From: a virus
Length of the DNA stretch: 23,256 bases
Virus record (IMG/VR): IMGVR_UViG_3300031801_000022
Location: 1 to 23,256 of that record
Strand: one strand, 5' to 3'
The notes below the pieces were generated by a model. That model searched no databases and had not been told where the DNA came from. It worked only from the letters and a program-made list of their open reading frames with translations. The position numbers and the translations under genes were made by a program. Of this stretch, positions 1,391 to 21,308 are shown one piece after another. Each line of letters starts with the position of its first letter. The stretch's first letter is position 1.

Positions 1391-1843
1391 CTACCCTAGT
1401 TTCTTCCCACGATCTATTTCTCTTTGTTCCTTTCTATAGTTTTCATATTTGAGAAGTAGTTTTTCATGGTCTTTTCGTTCCTTTCTCTCACAAGCTAAAA
1501 TCCACGAAACGCACTGCCAAACAATATTATCTGGTTCTGTATTCCAATCTTTATGGTCTACGCCGCATTCGGACTGTTTGATGTTCTCGAAAAAATCCAG
1601 ATATGGATTCTTATCAAAGAAGTAGGTCAGTTGGCCTCTAATCATTAGCATATCCGCATTCGGGTTTAATCTTTGCAATTCTGGACCATAAACTTTGGCT
1701 TCGGCATCCCAACTACCCTGGTTATAAAAGCCTGCAAAAAAGTCGTCCTTGTGCCCTATTAAATCTACTGGTACGGTAATTTCGATCTTGAAAATATCCT
1801 TATGGAACACATTATAGCCAAAAACTTCGATTTCTGTTTCCAT
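1391..1843 (-). CDS. Hypothetical protein, 150 aa, long paralogue of a tandem pair
   Basis: Family not recognised. It shares most of its core with the gene immediately upstream: the M-TEIE-FG start, a KIEITVP-type stretch, QGSWD, YGPELQRLNP and a VSWILA-ER motif occur in both in the same order. This copy has two insertions (about residues 32-40 and 73-97) and a 28-residue charged helical tail (from about 119) absent from the short copy. AGGAAAAC precedes the ATG. The two copies are also close at DNA level over 1482-1560 and 1892-1970, which indicates a fairly recent duplication. Confidence 0.75.
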   Translation of the reverse strand: METEIEVFGYNVFHKDIFKIEITVPVDLIGHKDDFFAGFYNQGSWDAEAKVYGPELQRLNPNADMLMIRGQLTYFFDKNPYLDFFENIKQSECGVDHKDWNTEPDNIVWQCVSWILACERKERKDHEKLLLKYENYRKEQREIDRGKKLG

Positions 1844-3145: not shown

Positions 3146-3181
<36 letters not shown>

Positions 3182-3187
3182 CGTGGC

Positions 3188-3259
3188 TATATTACCTATA
3201 TTACCTATATTACCTATATTATCTATTTTACCTATATTACCTATTTTACCTATTTTACC
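3188..3259. repeat. Eight tandem 9-bp repeats
   Basis: TATATTACC and variants (TATTTTACC, TATATTATC) are repeated eight times in unbroken 9-bp register. The tract starts six bases after the T-run. No ribosome site or credible gene uses it; reading frames across it are a by-product of the repeat. Confidence 0.85.
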
Positions 3260-3925: not shown

Positions 3926-3981
3926 AAATTCAAAAAAATAATTTCCAGGTTACCGATTCGCATGACTGCCCCATTCTAGAA

Positions 3982-4668
3982 TTATGTGTTAGCGTTCGCG
4001 GCCATTAGCTGCTCTGTTACCAGCTCCGCCAGTTGTTCAGATTCGTCGATCACCTCCTCATCTACTTCGTCGGTTGCCTCTTCCTCCTCTTCATCGATTG
4101 CTTCAAAATGCTCCGTTTCGATTTTGTCGACCAGGTCAGGGACCAATGCGTGGATAGATAAATCGCAATTAGTCAGTCTCTTCCAGGTTGCCGCGTAGGC
4201 TTGCTTGTCCCATCCATCTAATGGGGTAGTTTTAAGACTACCGTCATCATTCGTGGCCAGCGCTTGGCAATAACGCTCAACCGCGGAATACGTGATAGAC
4301 TCAACGTGCTGCATTCCAGCCACGTACGTACAGACTTCGCCAAACCTAAGCTGATTTCCAAAATAGACCGGGATACCATTGCGAAGAAAAACTAAAGCCT
4401 TCCTTTTTGGGCCCTTTTTTTTGTTCGATATCCCAAAGTATAAATCGGCCTGTTCGCGAAACCAGTGCACAGGTTGCTCCGATAGTTCGGTATTGTCGAT
4501 CCTGATGATTACAGCCCGCCCATTTTTGCGGGTTATCTGCGCCAGGGTCTGAATGCCAACGTTTTCCGCCGCAAGAAAATTCGCGGCACATAAACGAGTA
4601 AATTCCCGCTCGTTCTTAAATAACATTGTGCTACCGTCGAGGGTAGCTAGATAGGGTACGGTTGCCAT
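3982..4668 (-). CDS. Hypothetical protein with acidic tail, 228 aa, beside the putative origin
   Basis: This is the first leftward gene after the divergent control region. Family not recognised. Visible parts: a mixed globular region (residues 1-180) with a basic patch (KKKGPKRK, 83-90), then a strongly acidic stretch (about 184-217) before a short Ala/Asn end. A basic core with an acidic tail is common in single-strand-binding proteins and other DNA-associated proteins, and the position next to the iteron-like array would suit a replication or regulatory protein, but I see no winged-helix, OB or other named motif. Start: AAGGAAAAG lies eight bases before the ATG. The 5' leader carries a chain of hairpins (4713-4858), so expression may be controlled at RNA level. 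Confidence 0.8.
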   Translation of the reverse strand: MATVPYLATLDGSTMLFKNEREFTRLCAANFLAAENVGIQTLAQITRKNGRAVIIRIDNTELSEQPVHWFREQADLYFGISNKKKGPKRKALVFLRNGIPVYFGNQLRFGEVCTYVAGMQHVESITYSAVERYCQALATNDDGSLKTTPLDGWDKQAYAATWKRLTNCDLSIHALVPDLVDKIETEHFEAIDEEEEEATDEVDEEVIDESEQLAELVTEQLMAANANT

Positions 4669-4712
4669 TTTGTCTTTTCCTTATAAAAAAAACGAATGGC
4701 AGTCATGCGAAC

Positions 4713-4858
4713 CGGGAACCCGGTGTTCCCGACATAGGCGGCGGTATGAACCCGCATACGTTGCTCATGCAAGCCCCCGTGCTATAGGGGGTAGCCTTGG
4801 ATGGCTAGGTTGGAGCAATGTACCTACGGCCGATCTATTATCTAGCCCGCCTTTCGGC
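4713..4858 (-). other. Chain of hairpins in leader of the 228-aa gene; candidate structured RNA
   Basis: Six simple hairpins follow each other: CGGGAA/TTCCCG with a 7-base loop (4713-4731), GTATG/CATAC (4744-4759), TTGC/GCAA (4761-4772), CCCCC/GGGGG (4774-4791), TAGGT/ACCTA (4806-4826), and GCC/GGC (4849-4858), whose loop reads GAAA on the minus strand, a GNRA tetraloop. The stretch is richer in GC than its surroundings and contains no supported gene. Orientation is inferred from the GNRA loop and from its position just before the leftward ATG at 4668. It does not fold as a tRNA and I do not recognise a riboswitch. Confidence 0.4.
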
Positions 4859-4979
4859 TCTTCGGCTGGCCAACGTTTGACCAGCGGTATGGGCTGTGAT
4901 CGACTACAGAGGCAGTAGACCATAGTATCGGCCATCGGTCAAGCCCGTGGACACAAAAAAGCCAATTTATTTTTGAGCG

Positions 4980-5034
4980 TTTGTCCACTAGTCGCGTGTA
5001 TAGCATAGTGGGGATTTGTTCACTAGTCGCATGT
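4980..5034. repeat. 20-bp imperfect direct repeat
   Basis: TTTGTCCACTAGTCGCGTGT (4980-4999) and TTTGTTCACTAGTCGCATGT (5015-5034) differ at two positions and are 35 bp apart. They lie just left of the 28-bp palindrome and are probably protein-binding sites. Confidence 0.7.
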
Positions 5035-5041
5035 TCACCAT

Positions 5042-5069
5042 CCAATTTTATGTCATGACATAAAATTGG
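5042..5069. repeat. 28-bp perfect palindrome
   Basis: A perfect 14+14 palindrome centred on TGTCA|TGACA, with outer arms CCAATTTTA and TAAAATTGG. It marks the left end of the 16-bp repeat array and contains the same TGACA core; the 12-bp palindrome ATGTCATGACAT (5209-5220) closes the right end. Confidence 0.9.
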
Positions 5070-5070
5070 T

Positions 5071-5219
5071 TGTCATAAACCTGTCATGTCATAAACCTGT
5101 CATGTCAGATTCATGGCCTGACATTTTTATGGCCTGACACATTTATGGTGTGACACATTTATGGTGTGACACATTTATGGTGTGACACATTTATGGTGTG
5201 ACACATTTATGTCATGACA
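5071..5219. repeat. Iteron-like array of 16-bp units, candidate replication origin
   Basis: Units start at 5071, 5087, 5103, 5119, 5135, 5151, 5167, 5183, 5199 and 5215, always 16 bp apart. The first two are TGTCATAAACCTGTCA; from 5135 four are TGACACATTTATGGTG; the others are variants. The left units carry the inverse of the right-hand motif (ATAAACC against GGTTTAT), so orientation flips within one register. An A8T8 tract and AT-rich DNA follow directly. Iterons beside an AT-rich stretch are typical of theta-type origins; an operator or partition site is the alternative. Confidence 0.7.
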
Positions 5220-5240
5220 TTTTTCCGCCCCCTAGGTAAG

Positions 5241-5390
5241 CTAAAAAAAATTTTTTTTAAAATCCCTAAATACCCATTTATAAATTAATTTTTCATTTTA
5301 TAGAAAAAGAGGTTTATAAAAAGGAGTCTCTTTAAAACCCCCTAAAAGGAGTCTCTTTAAAACCACCTTATAAATCTTTCCATTCGGCCA
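5241..5390. other. AT-rich stretch with A8T8 tract
   Basis: Starts with A8T8 (5243-5258), an intrinsically bent or easily opened sequence, and stays AT-rich to about 5390. No gene is present. Next to the 16-bp array it could serve as a DNA-unwinding element. Confidence 0.45.
5319..5364. repeat. 21-bp direct repeat in AT-rich stretch
   Basis: Two identical 21-bp copies (5319-5339 and 5344-5364, period 25) built on AAAAGGAGTCTCTTTAAAAC. Probably binding sites; AGGAGTCTC resembles a ribosome site but no reading frame follows at the right distance. Confidence 0.75.
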
Positions 5391-5568
5391 GCGGGCCAAT
5401 CCACAAATAAGTTGCATGAACCCCCACCCCCAAATGCCGCAGACGGGTCCCTCCTGGGTCTCCGCCACATCAACCCTTCACCGGTCGTTTGTGGGCTACT
5501 ATGCTGGCAGATGCGACAGGGGAGGCCCTCTGCGAGACCAATTTTAAAAAATCCAAAAATAATTCCCC
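5391..5568. other. GC-rich gene-free stretch before rightward promoters
   Basis: The stretch has no supported gene. It has several inverted arms: CCACAAA (5401-5407) with TTTGTGG (5488-5494), GGTCTC (5457-5462) with GAGACC (5534-5539), and AGGG/CCCT around 5517-5529. It lies upstream of both rightward promoters, so it is not their leader. It may be a leftward RNA or a protein-binding region; no known RNA is recognised. Confidence 0.35.
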
Positions 5569-5596
5569 TTGACTATCTAAACTTCGTGTGTAAAAT
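5569..5596 (+). promoter_or_regulatory. Rightward promoter P1 (upstream)
   Basis: TTGACT (5569-5574), a 16-bp spacer and TAAAAT (5591-5596). First of two tandem promoters before the long rightward gene block. Confidence 0.55.
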
Positions 5597-5600
5597 GTAC

Positions 5601-5629
5601 TTGACGTGGAGTAGGGCCTCTTCTATTAT
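5601..5629 (+). promoter_or_regulatory. Rightward promoter P2 (downstream)
   Basis: TTGACG (5601-5606), a 17-bp spacer and TATTAT (5624-5629). The expected start near 5635-5637 is only 3-5 bases before the ATG at 5640, so the first message would be almost leaderless. Confidence 0.6.
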
Positions 5630-5639
5630 AGGCTATACG

Positions 5640-5813
5640 ATGATGTATGATCCAGTAAAGCAAGTGGTATTTCTTAGCATATCTAGTCTAGTGCTGACCA
5701 TTGGCATAGGATTGTTTTTATGGCTAGAACCCTCTTCAGAAATAGCAGTCCCAGAGTGCAATTGTGTGTATTTTGATGGCGGAGTAGATAAACATAATGC
5801 CATATCCAGATGA
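5640..5813 (+). CDS. Small membrane protein, 57 aa
   Basis: The frame is open further upstream, to 5412, but both tandem promoters and a GC-rich non-coding stretch lie there, so the ATG at 5640 (or 5643) is the likely start. The protein has one hydrophobic segment (about residues 9-28) followed by a short tail with a Cys pair (ECNC). No Shine-Dalgarno site is seen; a nearly leaderless message from P2 would explain that. The last 17 bases overlap the next gene. Its position, first in the rightward block, suggests a membrane role during infection, but nothing more can be claimed. It may also not be translated. Confidence 0.35.
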   Translation: MMYDPVKQVVFLSISSLVLTIGIGLFLWLEPSSEIAVPECNCVYFDGGVDKHNAISR

Positions 5814-6936
5814 TGTTAGTGTATTCTTACACGAGCTGGATGACGATATATGGAATGATGCCAGTACTGTATTTAAATTCCTATACGCTAATATAGGGAA
5901 CAGTGCTTCACATGCAGACTCCAAAGTATTAGATATTAATGTTTCAGGCACGAGCTTACTAGATTTAGGAGTAGAAGGTCGTTTAGGGATAAATGGAGAA
6001 GCTAATATCCTATCTACGTTTAGTGTTACTCAATTAGGTGATGATGAGGGTATTAGATTAGATCACGCAAGTGAGGTTGGTACATTAGATATAGATAGTG
6101 CTGGTACACTTAGATTAGCAAACACTGATGATTTAGTATTAGAAGCTACTGCTGCCGCTATATTGACTTTAGGAACCAATAGTGTACTTCCAGCTAACAA
6201 TACTGTTGTAATAGGAAGTTCTAGTAGTCCTATTGCTGATGTTTGGGCGGATAATTTCCATGCTATATTTGGCATAGAGATTAGGTCTGGAGTAGATATT
6301 ACTTTTCAGACTAATGGCGCTAATGATCTAGGGACTGATGCCTTAAGAGCTGGAGTATTGTACAGTACTTACCTAGATTTATCTGGGCATTTATTTTTTA
6401 GGACGAATAATACCAGCGATATAGGAACTGCTCCTTTAAGAGCGGCGACTATATACTGTACTGATTTAAATGTTACTAATATACCTTCTTGGGCTTCTTC
6501 TGATCATAGGTATTTAGGAAGAGATGAGATTGGACCATTAACTGGTTCGGTTTCTATAAACTTCGATACAGGAAGCTACTTTAATAAAAATGGCGATCTA
6601 ACTGGCAATGTAACAATGGGGGCTATGTCTAAAACTTCTACAGGATGGTGTACTTTGGCAGTACAGCAAACTTCTGGAGGTGGATTTACTATAGATTGGG
6701 CTAGTGCTGGCATAACTCCTTTGCCCCCACAACCATTTTCAGGTAATCAGGAAGTAACTAGATATGATCTTTATTTTGATGAAGATTATGGTTGGACTTG
6801 GGATTTTAACGCTGGTATTAGTTCTGGTATCCCGGAAACTTCAGAACCGATCTTAACCCCGAGTGGTAGAAGTTTCAATGATAAACGAGCTAAAGGGAAT
6901 ATAATCAGAGATATTTCCTATCAGATAATTGCATAG
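5797..6936 (+). CDS. Tail fibre-like protein, 379 aa
   Basis: The body is low-complexity beta-rich sequence typical of phage fibre shafts. A motif of about 15 residues with the pattern [IL]G[ST]-x-LR-x-x-x-[IV]Y is seen around 139-154, 178-192 and 209-223 (for example LGTDALRAGVLYS and IGTAPLRAATIYC); such repeats form trimeric beta-structure in known fibres. A Gly/Trp-rich region (about 280-335) forms the distal part. A role in host contact is inferred. The start ATG at 5797 has only a distant GGAG. The next gene shares the same shaft motif, so the two are probably related parts of one adsorption apparatus. An anchor or a short fibre are both possible. Confidence 0.7.
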   Translation: MPYPDDVSVFLHELDDDIWNDASTVFKFLYANIGNSASHADSKVLDINVSGTSLLDLGVEGRLGINGEANILSTFSVTQLGDDEGIRLDHASEVGTLDIDSAGTLRLANTDDLVLEATAAAILTLGTNSVLPANNTVVIGSSSSPIADVWADNFHAIFGIEIRSGVDITFQTNGANDLGTDALRAGVLYSTYLDLSGHLFFRTNNTSDIGTAPLRAATIYCTDLNVTNIPSWASSDHRYLGRDEIGPLTGSVSINFDTGSYFNKNGDLTGNVTMGAMSKTSTGWCTLAVQQTSGGGFTIDWASAGITPLPPQPFSGNQEVTRYDLYFDEDYGWTWDFNAGISSGIPETSEPILTPSGRSFNDKRAKGNIIRDISYQIIA

Positions 6937-6972
6937 GTGCGGATTAACTATTTTTTTCAGTAATGAAAACTT

Positions 6973-9900
6973 ATGACTTTAACGAATAATCTTACTACCA
7001 CGGGCTCCCCCGCCCTTCCAGCTATTATATACAAAAATGGCAGTTTTTTATCAACTGCTAATACTGGTGCTGCTACCGAAACAATGGTAGTAAAGGCTAA
7101 TTTTACCGAATTGCATATAAGAGTAACTTGGCCTACTGTTGGATCGGAAACTAGATTACATTGTTGGTATAGAAAAACTGGAGATGCTGAATGGGCATTT
7201 GGTGCCGATTTAGATTTACTGTCTATAGGAACTGGTGAGTTTATTGGCGTTATTGGCAATCTAGTTCCAGGACAGGAATATGATGTTCTAGCCTGGACTG
7301 GAACAACTGAGATAGCTTATAATTCTGCTGAAGCTACTAGAAAACCATTAGTAGTAGATCGAGATTTAACGATAACTGATGAAGTTTATGTTAAACCTGG
7401 AGCAACTGGAACTGGAACATTTGACGATCCAGCTGATTTAGGAGCTAGTGTCGCTGCATTTTCATCTGGTGAGCGGATACAGGTATTACCTGGAGATTAT
7501 AGAAATGTTACTTCTTCTGGCGATGTAAACGCAGACAATATCGCTTTAGTAGCTTATGACGAAAATAATAGGCCCCGTATATTTGGGGATTTTTCCTTTC
7601 CAGGGATGAGCTGGTCAGCTCATGGAGCTATTACTGGGGCATGGGAAACCTCCATAGGTGGTACTGATCAACCGTTTATTGATACAGCTCATGTTAATAC
7701 TGTAGATGGATATGTACTTCCTCATTGCTATGATGATGATGAATTAATTGATGCACCGGCTGGTTTTCGATTAAAAACTGGTCCTATTCTTGTAGTAAAA
7801 TTGCATGATCATTCTGATCCAGGGGTAACTGGGATTTCTATATCTCATAACCAGCGGTTACTAAAGAATATTGGTAGCAACACTGTTATAAAAAATATTG
7901 ATTTTTATAATTTTGGTCGGCATAGTTCTACAGCTATTTTCAGGGGTGATGCTGACACCACAGATTTTACTATTGAAGATTGCACCTTTACAAATTGTAA
8001 GCTAGCAGCTCAATTTACTAATTCTACTAGAATTCATATTAATAGATGTAGATGCACTGGAAGATATGAGTTTAATACTTGGGATCAAGCTAAAGGAACA
8101 GATGTTACTGCTACTAAAGCTATGGGCGATGGAAATAGCTTTTCCTTTGAAACTGATTGTAGTCAAGTAGTAGTAGAAGATGTGGTATATGATGGGGGAA
8201 TGGATGGGATAAAACTAACTGGCGGAAGTCTTCCAGGATCAGTATTTCACCATGCCATTAGTATTTTACGTTTACGTACACAACGAATGCTGGATGATTC
8301 TATTTCAGTAGGGTCACATAGTTGTGGAGTATTAATAGAAGATATTGAGTGTTTGGAGTGTGCTAATCTTGTAGCTTTAGCTGATTTTACTGTTGGCCCA
8401 GTTTGGATTGTACAGGGAGTTGGTACTGGTATTAAGTTTAGAAATAGAATTTCTAATGGGGCATTTATAGACGATCTTGATTCTACGTCTTCAGAAATGT
8501 TTAAATATGGTAGTGATTCTACTACTGCTGTAAGAGGAATTGTAAGAGCTTATTTCTGTACTGGTTTGTGCGATACGCCTAATCCAGACATAGGAGATTA
8601 TCGAGGTGATAATCTTCAAACTAATGTTAGTCCAGATGGTGTTGAAGTAATTAACTGTATTGTTGCTAGTCCAGAAGATTTAGTACATTTTTCAGGGGTG
8701 ACTACTAATGTATTGAGAGAGAACAATTTCTATTGGCCAACTGATTCAACACGAGCAGATACTGCTAAGTATAGTGAAGGTGGTGCTTATTCAAATGATT
8801 TAGCTGATTGGGTAGCTGATAGTGGATTTGATGGAGCTACTGATGTTAGGATTGGTCAATCACCTAGTTTAGAAGGTGATCCTAAGTTAGATGCAGCTTA
8901 TTTTCCGCTAGATGACAGTCCTTGTAAAGGTACTGCTCAGTCTATTCGTGGATTTTCCTATATTGGAAGTAATATAGGTGGAAGACAACCAGCAAGAGTT
9001 AGAGCTGCTACTATTCCAGTAATTGGAAAGACTGTAGTAGATCATGCCGTTGGTGCAGAAATAAAGATTATTTCTCCTAGTGACCTGATATTAGCTTCTT
9101 CTTCCAGAAATGTAATAATCAATAGTGGGGAAGACATAGAAGCATTAAGGTTAGATAAAGATCAAGATGCACATTTTGCAAATGAAGTTTTTTGTGAGGA
9201 CTTAACAGTTACTAATCCACCTTGGGGAAGTGGTTCAGTGGATATATCTGGAACCCCTGCTGTTAACCAAGTAGTGTTTTGGCTAGATAGTGATACTATT
9301 AAGGGTGATTCTAATTTAATCTGGGACGGAACTAATCGGAAGTTAAAGTTAACAGAAGACAGCAATACTAATTCGGATAAAGCGGTTTTAACCCTAGCTA
9401 AACTTCCTGAGGACCTTGGAGCGAGTTCAAATAATGAAGACCTTGGTGAAATAACTTTTTCTGGCTGGGGTGGTAGTACAGAAATACAAGGAGCTAGAAT
9501 CTTATTTGAAGCTGATGAATCTTGGAGCGAATCAACAGCTCGAACTAATATGTTTATTGGTTTAACTCCAGCAGGTGCAACAGAACCAGTGGATGTTTTG
9601 TTTTTAGAATCTACTGGTAATTTTGGCTTGGGTGCTGCTCCAGGTACTGGGTCTAGTATGCTGTTATTGCAACGGTCTGATGAGTTTTTCTTTAGACTGG
9701 CCTGCCATTCAAATACCTCGGCTGATTCTGGAAGAATTAAATTTGAGAAATTTCCTGATGACGGTTTAACTATGACTACGGGGGAAGAGATTGGTAATCT
9801 TCGTTGGGAAGGTGACGATGGAACTGCTAGCGGTTTAGCGGCGGAGATATTCGTTAAATCAGGGGGTACATGGGCAGTTGGCGACCATCCATCTACAATG

Positions 9901-20441: not shown

Positions 20442-21308
20442 ATGGCTACTTTTAATAAAATGTTTGGTGAATGTACTGGCGCATTTGGTTTTCCTATGAG
20501 AGAAATTGAAGCTAGGAAATTAGATGAACAAATTTCAAAGGAAAGTGATGTAGAATTAGTTCATTTTAGGAAAGAGTGTAGACAGTTTGAATGTTTTATT
20601 GAGAAAGAACACGCTGACGTTTCTATTATTACTGATTCTTCTGTGGATAAAACCAGGGAAGTTATGGATATCGAGTCAATTAGTTTTGAGGTATTTAAAG
20701 GGAATCCTCAAGTTGCTTATGCTCATAATTATAAAATTCCTCCAATTGGTCGTTCTTTGTGGCAAAAGTATTTTAAGACTTTCGATGGATTTAAGGCAAA
20801 AACAAAATATTACGATCGCCCAGAAAACCATCGAAAAGAGGTGGAGTGGTTTCCAGATTATATCTATGAGCTAGTTAAAAGTGGAAATCTTCCTGGAAAG
20901 AGTATTGGGGGAGTAGCTAAAAAAAGAGAGGTTACTGAAGAAGACCTTAAAAAGAATCCCCATTGGAAAGAAGCAAGAGTAGTTCGGTATGATTCAAAAG
21001 TTTATGAATACAGTGTTGTAGGTATTCCAACAAATAATAATGCAGAAGTTGAACTTGTTGCAAAAGGGCTAGTTAATATGGAAGACAGTATTCTTGAAAA
21101 TGCTTTTCCAACATTAGCCGAAGTAGTTTTTGATTTGCGTAAGAGCACTGAACCGGTAGAAATTCCATTTATTAAAGACGTAGTTACATCTGCTGAATAT
21201 GAAGAGGAATTTTCTGTTAGTTTACAAAGAGAGCTTGAAGGTCTCCATAAGAGTGTACCCGAGCTAATAGACAAGGCATTAAAGCGTTTACTAGGTAAAG
21301 TAGCATAG
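20442..21308 (+). CDS. Prohead maturation protease, HK97/U35 type, 288 aa
   Basis: Cleaves the capsid protein (and itself) after prohead assembly. The conserved blocks are YAHNYKIPPIGRS (93-105, catalytic H95), GNLPGKSIGGVAK (148-160, nucleophile S154) and YEYSVVGIPTNNNAEV (188-203). Length is above the usual 180-220 residues because of a C-terminal extension (about 210-288) of helical, charged sequence that may serve as an internal scaffold. The start has AAGGAATAAG upstream. It immediately precedes the capsid gene, the standard order for HK97-type heads. Confidence 0.88.
   Translation: MATFNKMFGECTGAFGFPMREIEARKLDEQISKESDVELVHFRKECRQFECFIEKEHADVSIITDSSVDKTREVMDIESISFEVFKGNPQVAYAHNYKIPPIGRSLWQKYFKTFDGFKAKTKYYDRPENHRKEVEWFPDYIYELVKSGNLPGKSIGGVAKKREVTEEDLKKNPHWKEARVVRYDSKVYEYSVVGIPTNNNAEVELVAKGLVNMEDSILENAFPTLAEVVFDLRKSTEPVEIPFIKDVVTSAEYEEEFSVSLQRELEGLHKSVPELIDKALKRLLGKVA

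Follow-up and report, generated by a model that had tools for sequence, protein, structure and literature searches.

A ten-site 16-bp repeat array at a divergent gene junction of a tailed phage: a candidate replication origin

Introduction

The origin of satellite phage P4 is read by its own primase: the available text of PMC4234260 describes the alpha protein as a Toprim primase that binds the origin repeats through a winged helix. In the P4 record, the origin (9086-9809) lies between leftward and rightward genes, alpha (4636-6969) belongs to the leftward block more than 2 kb away, and the annotated type 1 repeats occur in both orientations. Iteron-type theta origins, such as F ori2/RepE and those of Paracoccus plasmids, combine direct repeats, inverted copies or repeats and an AT-rich neighbour, as far as the accessible parts of two sources describe them (PMC13028717, PMC3832669). 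The Paracoccus iterons measure 16 bp and are separated by 5-bp spacers, and other plasmids carry inverted partial iterons (PMC3832669). The Vibrio satellite PLE, a RepA_N system, has a repeat-bearing noncoding origin between divergent operons, according to the portion of PMC7145576 available to us. In phage lambda, tandem initiator sites (four iterons) form an ori that lies within gene O, as reported in the available parts of PMC11447400 and PMC6022878.

Here, we describe an array in a window of 23,256 bases (the whole stretch of DNA analysed; IMG/VR record IMGVR_UViG_3300031801_000022, positions 1 to 23,256). The locus resembles that of P4 in lying at a divergent junction and carrying repeats of both orientations, with the primase farther along the leftward block. 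It differs in that P4 repeats are 8-10 bp long, follow one another at 10-11 bp steps and are accompanied by a second repeat type, whereas the step here is 16 bp; the present phage also has a separate PolA. With iteron-type theta origins, it shares direct repeats, inverted copies and an AT-rich neighbour, and it departs from them in its 16-bp step (against ~21-22 bp), in its two opposed blocks and in having, among the proteins and DNA scanned, neither a Rep family protein nor a DnaA-box cluster. The likeness to PLE is one of layout (repeats in noncoding DNA between divergent operons), and no RepA_N protein was seen in the present phage. Tandem initiator sites recall lambda, from which the locus differs in lying in noncoding DNA, well away from the primase-helicase gene.

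The first-pass annotation of the window had called the 16-bp period unusual. The period does look unusual beside the 21-bp Paracoccus step (PMC3832669), though the annotated P4 origin sites are more closely spaced still. PMC7117683 was considered as a case of 16-bp iterons in opposite orientations and set aside; its available text describes 22-bp iterons and a 16-bp stem-loop. Among open-licence papers, titles and the opening lines of abstracts named no phage with opposed or 16-bp iterons between divergent genes.

Genomes and gene layout

The window is part of a tailed phage, with matches to portal (3.8e-26), capsid (1.3e-34) and terminase proteins. It is contained whole, at 99.83% identity (5 mismatches, 2 gaps), in IMGVR_UViG_3300031803_000001 (G001; 48,660 bases). 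The ends of G001 overlap by 189 bases with one mismatch, indicating a circular genome of about 48,471 bases. All whole-genome statements refer to G001, reverse-complemented to the window orientation. G002, a further record of this phage, has no match to the array and appears, from the positions of its terminase and primase-helicase, to cover a different part of the genome.

The plus strand of G001 carries the genes between ~31 kb and, past the circle point, 11.5 kb; the minus strand carries those from 11.6 to 30.0 kb. All 33 genes used to the right of the array are on the plus strand and all 25 to the left on the minus strand, with two small plus-strand ORFs of the left arm treated as spurious, a low-complexity one of 78 aa and one of 82 aa that lies in GC-rich noncoding DNA. 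The array occupies the largest inter-ORF gap of G001 (461 bp as listed), at the junction of these divergent blocks. The left block opens with a gene for a 228-aa protein and ends with an SNF2 helicase, a Holliday-junction-resolvase-like protein, an exonuclease, Sak4, PolA (PHROG match, 6e-98) and a primase-helicase of 684 aa; the right block consists of structural genes. Two adjacent and similar small genes of the left block (window 1391-1843 and 1879-2154) represent a local duplication.

Bulk scanning covered 55 proteins, with E-value limits of 0.001 for PHROGs and 0.01 for Pfam. PHROGs was also searched with the six main replication proteins, five of which were run against Pfam as well, and with the product of a 159-aa gene, for which it was the sole database. 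The scans took in ORFs of 60 aa or more other than a 1019-aa ORF and the two judged spurious. Within this scope, no integrase, ParA, ParM, TubZ, ParB, protelomerase or repressor/activator family was recognised, and no Rep/initiator family scored above its cut-off. Many of the families matched by the phage proteins are of no known function, so that, with this scope, absence of an integrase, partition, Rep or repressor protein means absence of a recognised one. The phage is probably lytic.

The surroundings of the array include the following features.

3982..4668, minus strand: gene for the 228-aa protein with an acidic C-terminal tail, first of the leftward block, a candidate binder
4669..4960, minus strand: GC-rich noncoding stretch upstream of the 228-aa gene
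5569-5596 and 5601-5629, plus strand: two sigma-70-like promoter matches facing the structural block

The sigma-70-like matches start about 350-400 bp past the array, in numbers no higher for the region than in shuffles, and the same search revealed no leftward promoter there. DnaA boxes form no cluster: 46 window matches were found at up to one mismatch against 62 expected, none of them between 3888 and 5586, the nearest to the right of the array being a single exact match at 5587-5595. As minus-strand RNA, the GC-rich stretch 4669-4960 folds better than 200 of 200 shuffles (z -3.72), and as plus-strand RNA it reaches z -1.98, with 6 of 200 shuffles equally good. Rfam gave no family for it; the three matches of the Rfam search lie far under their gathering scores and were taken as chance.

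Structure of the array

The array and its caps comprise the following elements; a strand is given where one applies.

5071..5219: lattice of ten TGWCA sites at an exact 16-bp step
5042..5069: left cap, a 28-bp perfect palindrome, CCAATTTTATGTCATGACATAAAATTGG, identical in G001
5074..5105, plus strand: two forward 16-bp units, CATAAACCTGTCATGT
5103..5115, minus strand: degenerate inverted 13-mer at the orientation switch, with 2 mismatches to CATAAANNTGTCA; dyad centre 5102.5
5116..5211, minus strand: six inverted 16-bp units, CATAAAAATGTCAGGC, CATAAATGTGTCAGGC and four CATAAATGTGTCACAC
5209..5220: right cap, a 12-bp palindrome, ATGTCATGACAT
5215..5227, minus strand: degenerate last inverted 13-mer, 2 mismatches
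5241..5325: AT-rich stretch of 85 bp, 83.5% A+T, a candidate unwinding element
5243..5258: A8T8 tract, within an 18-bp palindrome at 5242-5259

These elements bear out the anatomy that the first-pass annotation had drawn: a ten-unit 16-bp lattice, 28-bp and 12-bp palindromes with a common core, a motif orientation that switches partway, an A8T8 tract and AT-rich DNA after the array. The TGWCA sites start at 5071, 5087, 5103 and so on to 5215. The exact 13-mer CATAAANNTGTCA occurs eight times in the window, forward at 5074 and 5090 and inverted at 5119, 5135, 5151, 5167, 5183 and 5199. Refining that description, the 13-mers are symmetric about 5102.5, and the left units contain TGTCA twice, which lets TGWCA stay in register through the change of orientation. 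Among the four main unit types (degenerate units excluded), only 5 of the 16 columns vary, and units of both orientations share the 11 core bases. In G001, the core TGTCATGACA, common to both caps, is found twice, each time within the array; the exact 13-mer is likewise limited to the array in G001, with a single one-mismatch copy at 20,663. By simple arithmetic, 16 bp is about 1.5 helical turns, placing neighbouring sites on roughly opposite faces of the helix. Two 27-bp repeats (81%) lie to the left of the array, at 4980-5041.

Against 200 dinucleotide-preserving shuffles of the window, the order of the array is exceptional. The longest run of TGWCA at a fixed spacing of 5-60 bp counts 10 sites, compared with 3 in one shuffle, 2 in 193 and 1 in six, and the longest palindrome measures 28 bp against a shuffle maximum of 22 bp (one of 200). 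Eight exact matches to the 13-mer compare with 0.01 expected in the window. At up to two mismatches, the 13-mer is not above chance (15 matches against 11.95 expected, a number reached by 23 of 100 shuffles), and two of the degenerate matches sit on the lattice, those at 5103-5115 and 5215-5227. The array is confirmed as real, highly ordered and beyond chance.

Comparison of the first 8 kb of the window with G001 revealed internal differences only in the length of a T run (3 bp) and in two array units (32 bp). G001 has exactly two units fewer, within the inverted block (5116..5211), so that the blocks hold two forward and six inverted units in the window and two forward and four inverted in G001. 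Array units are gained or lost whole between otherwise near-identical genomes, in one event here, and this two-unit difference may be an assembly effect.

DNA stability around the array

The AT-rich right flank is among the least stable duplexes of G001. Its rank is second with windows of 60 or 80 bp, fourth with 40 or 100 bp and sixth with 150 bp; at 200 bp it falls outside the six least stable windows. Its least stable 80-bp window starts at ~5242 (G001 position 30583 in window coordinates). On the right side of the AT-rich DNA, two tandem 25-bp repeats (96%) occupy 5319-5368.

A second array, at window 3152-3259, is also noncoding and consists of eight 9-bp units (CTATATTAC on the plus strand) beside a T run, of 30 in the window and 27 in G001. 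It overlaps the genome's least stable 80-bp window and is a rival candidate for the origin. Outside the window, a 32-bp perfect palindrome lies beside small ORFs at 24582-24613 of the G001 reverse complement.

Strand composition

The GC-skew profile that the first-pass annotation proposed as a check offers no support for a bidirectional origin. After detrending, the curve of raw cumulative GC skew reaches its lowest point on the circle at G001 30,926 (window ~5585), ~360 bp to the right of the array, at the promoter-like matches and outside the array itself. We infer that the main sources of this minimum are the first codon positions, with coding-strand skews of 0.43 and 0.28, and the third positions of plus-strand genes. 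As a codon artefact, with fourfold-degenerate sites showing no strand switch at the array, the minimum was rejected as origin support.

Fourfold-degenerate sites were counted in 58 of 65 ORFs, the seven others being small, dubious or end-lying. Read on the plus strand, the 33 plus genes have G 394 against C 271 and T 1846 against A 1275, and the 25 minus genes have G 278 against C 196 (p 1.9e-4) and T 783 against A 671 (p 0.0036), with sites treated as independent. The plus strand is therefore rich in G and T in both arms, whatever the gene direction. When the genome is divided into 4-kb bins, 11 of the 12 full bins have more G than C and all 12 have more T than A, one of them by a single site; the last, partial bin has 14 sites. 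Intergenic DNA also has more G than C (517 against 459 in the left arm, 222 against 124 in the right), and the 938 intergenic bp around the array depart from this bias (G 196, C 224). Coding-strand bias has opposite signs in the plus and minus gene sets, which excludes a codon preference common to all genes as the source of the uniform bias. Such a bias suits one-way forks, by unidirectional theta or rolling-circle replication, or another strand-specific process. Its genome-wide extent suggests one-way replication. Initiation at the array is compatible with it, whereas bidirectional replication from the array over the long term is disfavoured. More generally, phages with divergent gene blocks can show a raw GC-skew minimum that arises from codon composition, and such minima call for caution.

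Candidate binding proteins

The 228-aa protein, encoded nearest to the array on its left side, had no informative match in PHROGs, Pfam, NCBIfam, PDB sequences or tblastn searches of phage and plasmid records; its one NCBIfam match, ArlH, had an E-value of 0.0025 and 17.6 bits against a cut-off of 215. Its gene has 48.6% GC, compared with 31-40% in most G001 genes, and may be a recent arrival. A 23-bp inverted repeat (21/23) flanks the gene, at window 3948-3970 and 4698-4720. AlphaFold models made without an alignment were unusable for both candidate proteins (mean pLDDT 39.4 for the 228-aa and 33.1 for the 684-aa protein).

The 684-aa protein, encoded ~16.4 kb from the array, weakly but consistently matches a Zn ribbon (1.8e-4), Toprim_2 (3.2e-3) and a generic AAA domain (0.015), all under curated cut-offs, NCBIfam dnaG (2e-10, also below the curated cut-off) and the PHROG DNA primase (7e-10). 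The start of its ATPase part matches NCBIfam orc1/cdc6 at 0.0057 (15.6 bits against a cut-off of 181). Its last 95 residues match TrmB (8.9e-4), TFIIE_alpha (1.2e-3) and PadR (4.4e-3), all below curated cut-offs, families that we take to be winged-helix by fold; among PDB sequences, this C-terminal part found one chain, of the MarR family, at E 0.42. As the binder of the array, we favour the 684-aa Toprim-AAA primase-helicase, which would use its winged-helix-like C-terminus, and place the 228-aa protein second.

Homology to P4 alpha was not detected: the best BLASTP E-values were 0.26 for the whole 684-aa protein and 0.092 for its C-terminal 95 residues, neither over the matching domain, and tblastn of the protein against phage records found six records, none of them P4. 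The shared layout and the absent homology roughly cancel in their effect on the odds of an origin and its rivals. The present system may operate like that of P4 without being an established member of it.

Relatives and pattern searches

A search for the unit in related phages, another check proposed at the outset, returned no related phage with a matching array, and no array-bearing relative was found beyond the two near-identical genomes. The terminase search gave 32 loci, two of them from this phage. Among the 30 other records, 15, mostly fragments, were searched for the 228-aa and 684-aa proteins, and none has either. In seven terminase relatives that were read, structural genes are common and an SNF2 helicase occurs in one (22% identity, 4e-16); none of the seven, four of them inspected in part, has a comparable 16-bp lattice. 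Short tandem repeats of other kinds are present, of 22 bp in G015 and of 11/21 bp in G016. Capsid-matched Bradyrhizobium and Streptomyces phages were compared by their gene tables.

A 14-base pattern proved too loose, giving at least 119 stretches, with one match in each of the 80 listed. A strict two-unit pattern gave nine stretches in genomes and two in IMG/VR, one of the latter being this phage; among the other ten, those from Lachnospiraceae (L167) and Phormidesmis (L170) continue as 16-bp repeats with a drifting core and eight do not. Four TGWCA sites at 16-bp steps were found in 30 IMG/VR stretches, including this phage, and by eye, 8-bp repeats account for ~11 of the other 29, the remainder being 16-bp repeats of other kinds. 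Around 14 of the four-site stretches, 62 ORFs were found, of which 47 were scanned and eight also run against Pfam. The 25 of 35 families listed include terminases, integrases and one primase and no initiator, and none of these listed families was matched by more than 2 of the 47 ORFs. In an unrelated viral contig (L139:8820-9127), TGACACAAATGTCATA repeats whose cores are palindromic form a 16-bp array; two neighbouring ORFs have no clear Pfam family.

Interpretation of the array

Our best reading, offered tentatively, is that the array is an iteron-type phage replication origin, as the first-pass annotation had proposed. The ordered array with an exact 13-mer confined to this locus in G001, the largest intergenic gap, the unstable AT-rich flank, the divergent junction, the replication genes and the P4 and PLE layouts suit that claim. 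Regularly spaced direct repeats with adjacent, easily opened DNA are found, as in iteron origins, and a known-family initiator and DnaA boxes are not among the features recognised; DnaA boxes occur in many, not all, iteron-type origins. The claim is weakened by the lack of a neutral strand switch, of a recognised initiator in the scanned proteins and of a related array in the relatives searched, by the distance of the primase-helicase gene and the absent homology of its product to P4 alpha, by winged-helix matches below cut-off, by a raw skew minimum outside the array, by the rank of the AT-rich flank at 200 bp and by the rival second array.

Alternatively, the row and its palindromes could form a multi-site operator, on which a regulator would control leftward (replication) and rightward (structural) transcription with no role in replication start. 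The position between divergent blocks, palindromes whose shared core fits a dimeric regulator, the rightward sigma-70-like matches at 5569-5629 and a strand bias that offers no origin support all speak for an operator, a strong rival that we nevertheless rate as less likely than an origin: the promoter-like matches lie ~350 bp beyond the array and are no commoner than in shuffles, the exact site is absent elsewhere in the genome, no repressor or activator family was recognised among the 55 proteins scanned (all of 60 aa or more), and ten evenly spaced sites are a large number for an operator. A neutral or structural minisatellite, in which slippage-grown repeats bind no protein, is favoured by a unit number that differs by two between near-identical genomes, and by the 29 other IMG/VR stretches with four TGWCA on a 16-bp lattice, around 14 of which no listed gene family was matched by more than 2 of the 47 ORFs scanned. 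Slippage has difficulty with palindromes that share the core of the array, and the restriction of unit changes to five of 16 columns, with 11 core bases kept, is only weakly unlikely under it (about 0.15 by a rough hand estimate), so that we consider a minisatellite improbable.

Two further readings draw on the same repeats and palindromes. ParR-, TubR- and omega-type centromeres typically consist of short sites, both direct and inverted, lined up at a single locus, as seen here; a partition site of a plasmid-like prophage is nonetheless very unlikely, since the proteins scanned include no recognised ParA, ParM, TubZ or ParB, and thus no partner NTPase gene, and no integrase or repressor. Perfect palindromes and repeats also occur in pac/cos and telomere-resolution sites, but the large terminase gene is 11.5 kb off, no protelomerase family was seen among the 55 proteins, and the array is internal to the G001 assembly, whose overlapping ends lie elsewhere, leaving a packaging start or telomere-resolution site with a slimmer chance than a centromere. 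Every other explanation, taken jointly, has a small probability, barely above that of a centromere.

If the array is an iteron-type origin, the row of directly repeated iterons at 16-bp steps and the two same-core palindromes would be binding sites, onto which a phage protein would load cooperatively. The AT-rich DNA to the right of the array would then open, and the phage PolA and the primase-helicase would be recruited to it, with forks moving mainly rightward. The primase-helicase may read the array through its winged-helix-like C-terminal part, as alpha does in P4, and the palindromes could serve as dimer sites for autoregulation. In a bolder version, which we rate as quite improbable and below a minisatellite, adjacent 16-bp iterons within the opposed blocks would face opposite sides of the helix, and the protein that recognises them through its winged helix would be a Toprim primase-helicase with no sequence relationship to P4 alpha. 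The unequal blocks would set a one-way fork, and this inequality would explain the uniform strand bias of the whole genome.

Biological implications

To our knowledge, the origins of most environmental phages with their own PolA and primase are not known. If the array is an origin, it would join a P4-like layout and primase-helicase architecture to a phage with its own polymerase, in a compact element of 200 bp.
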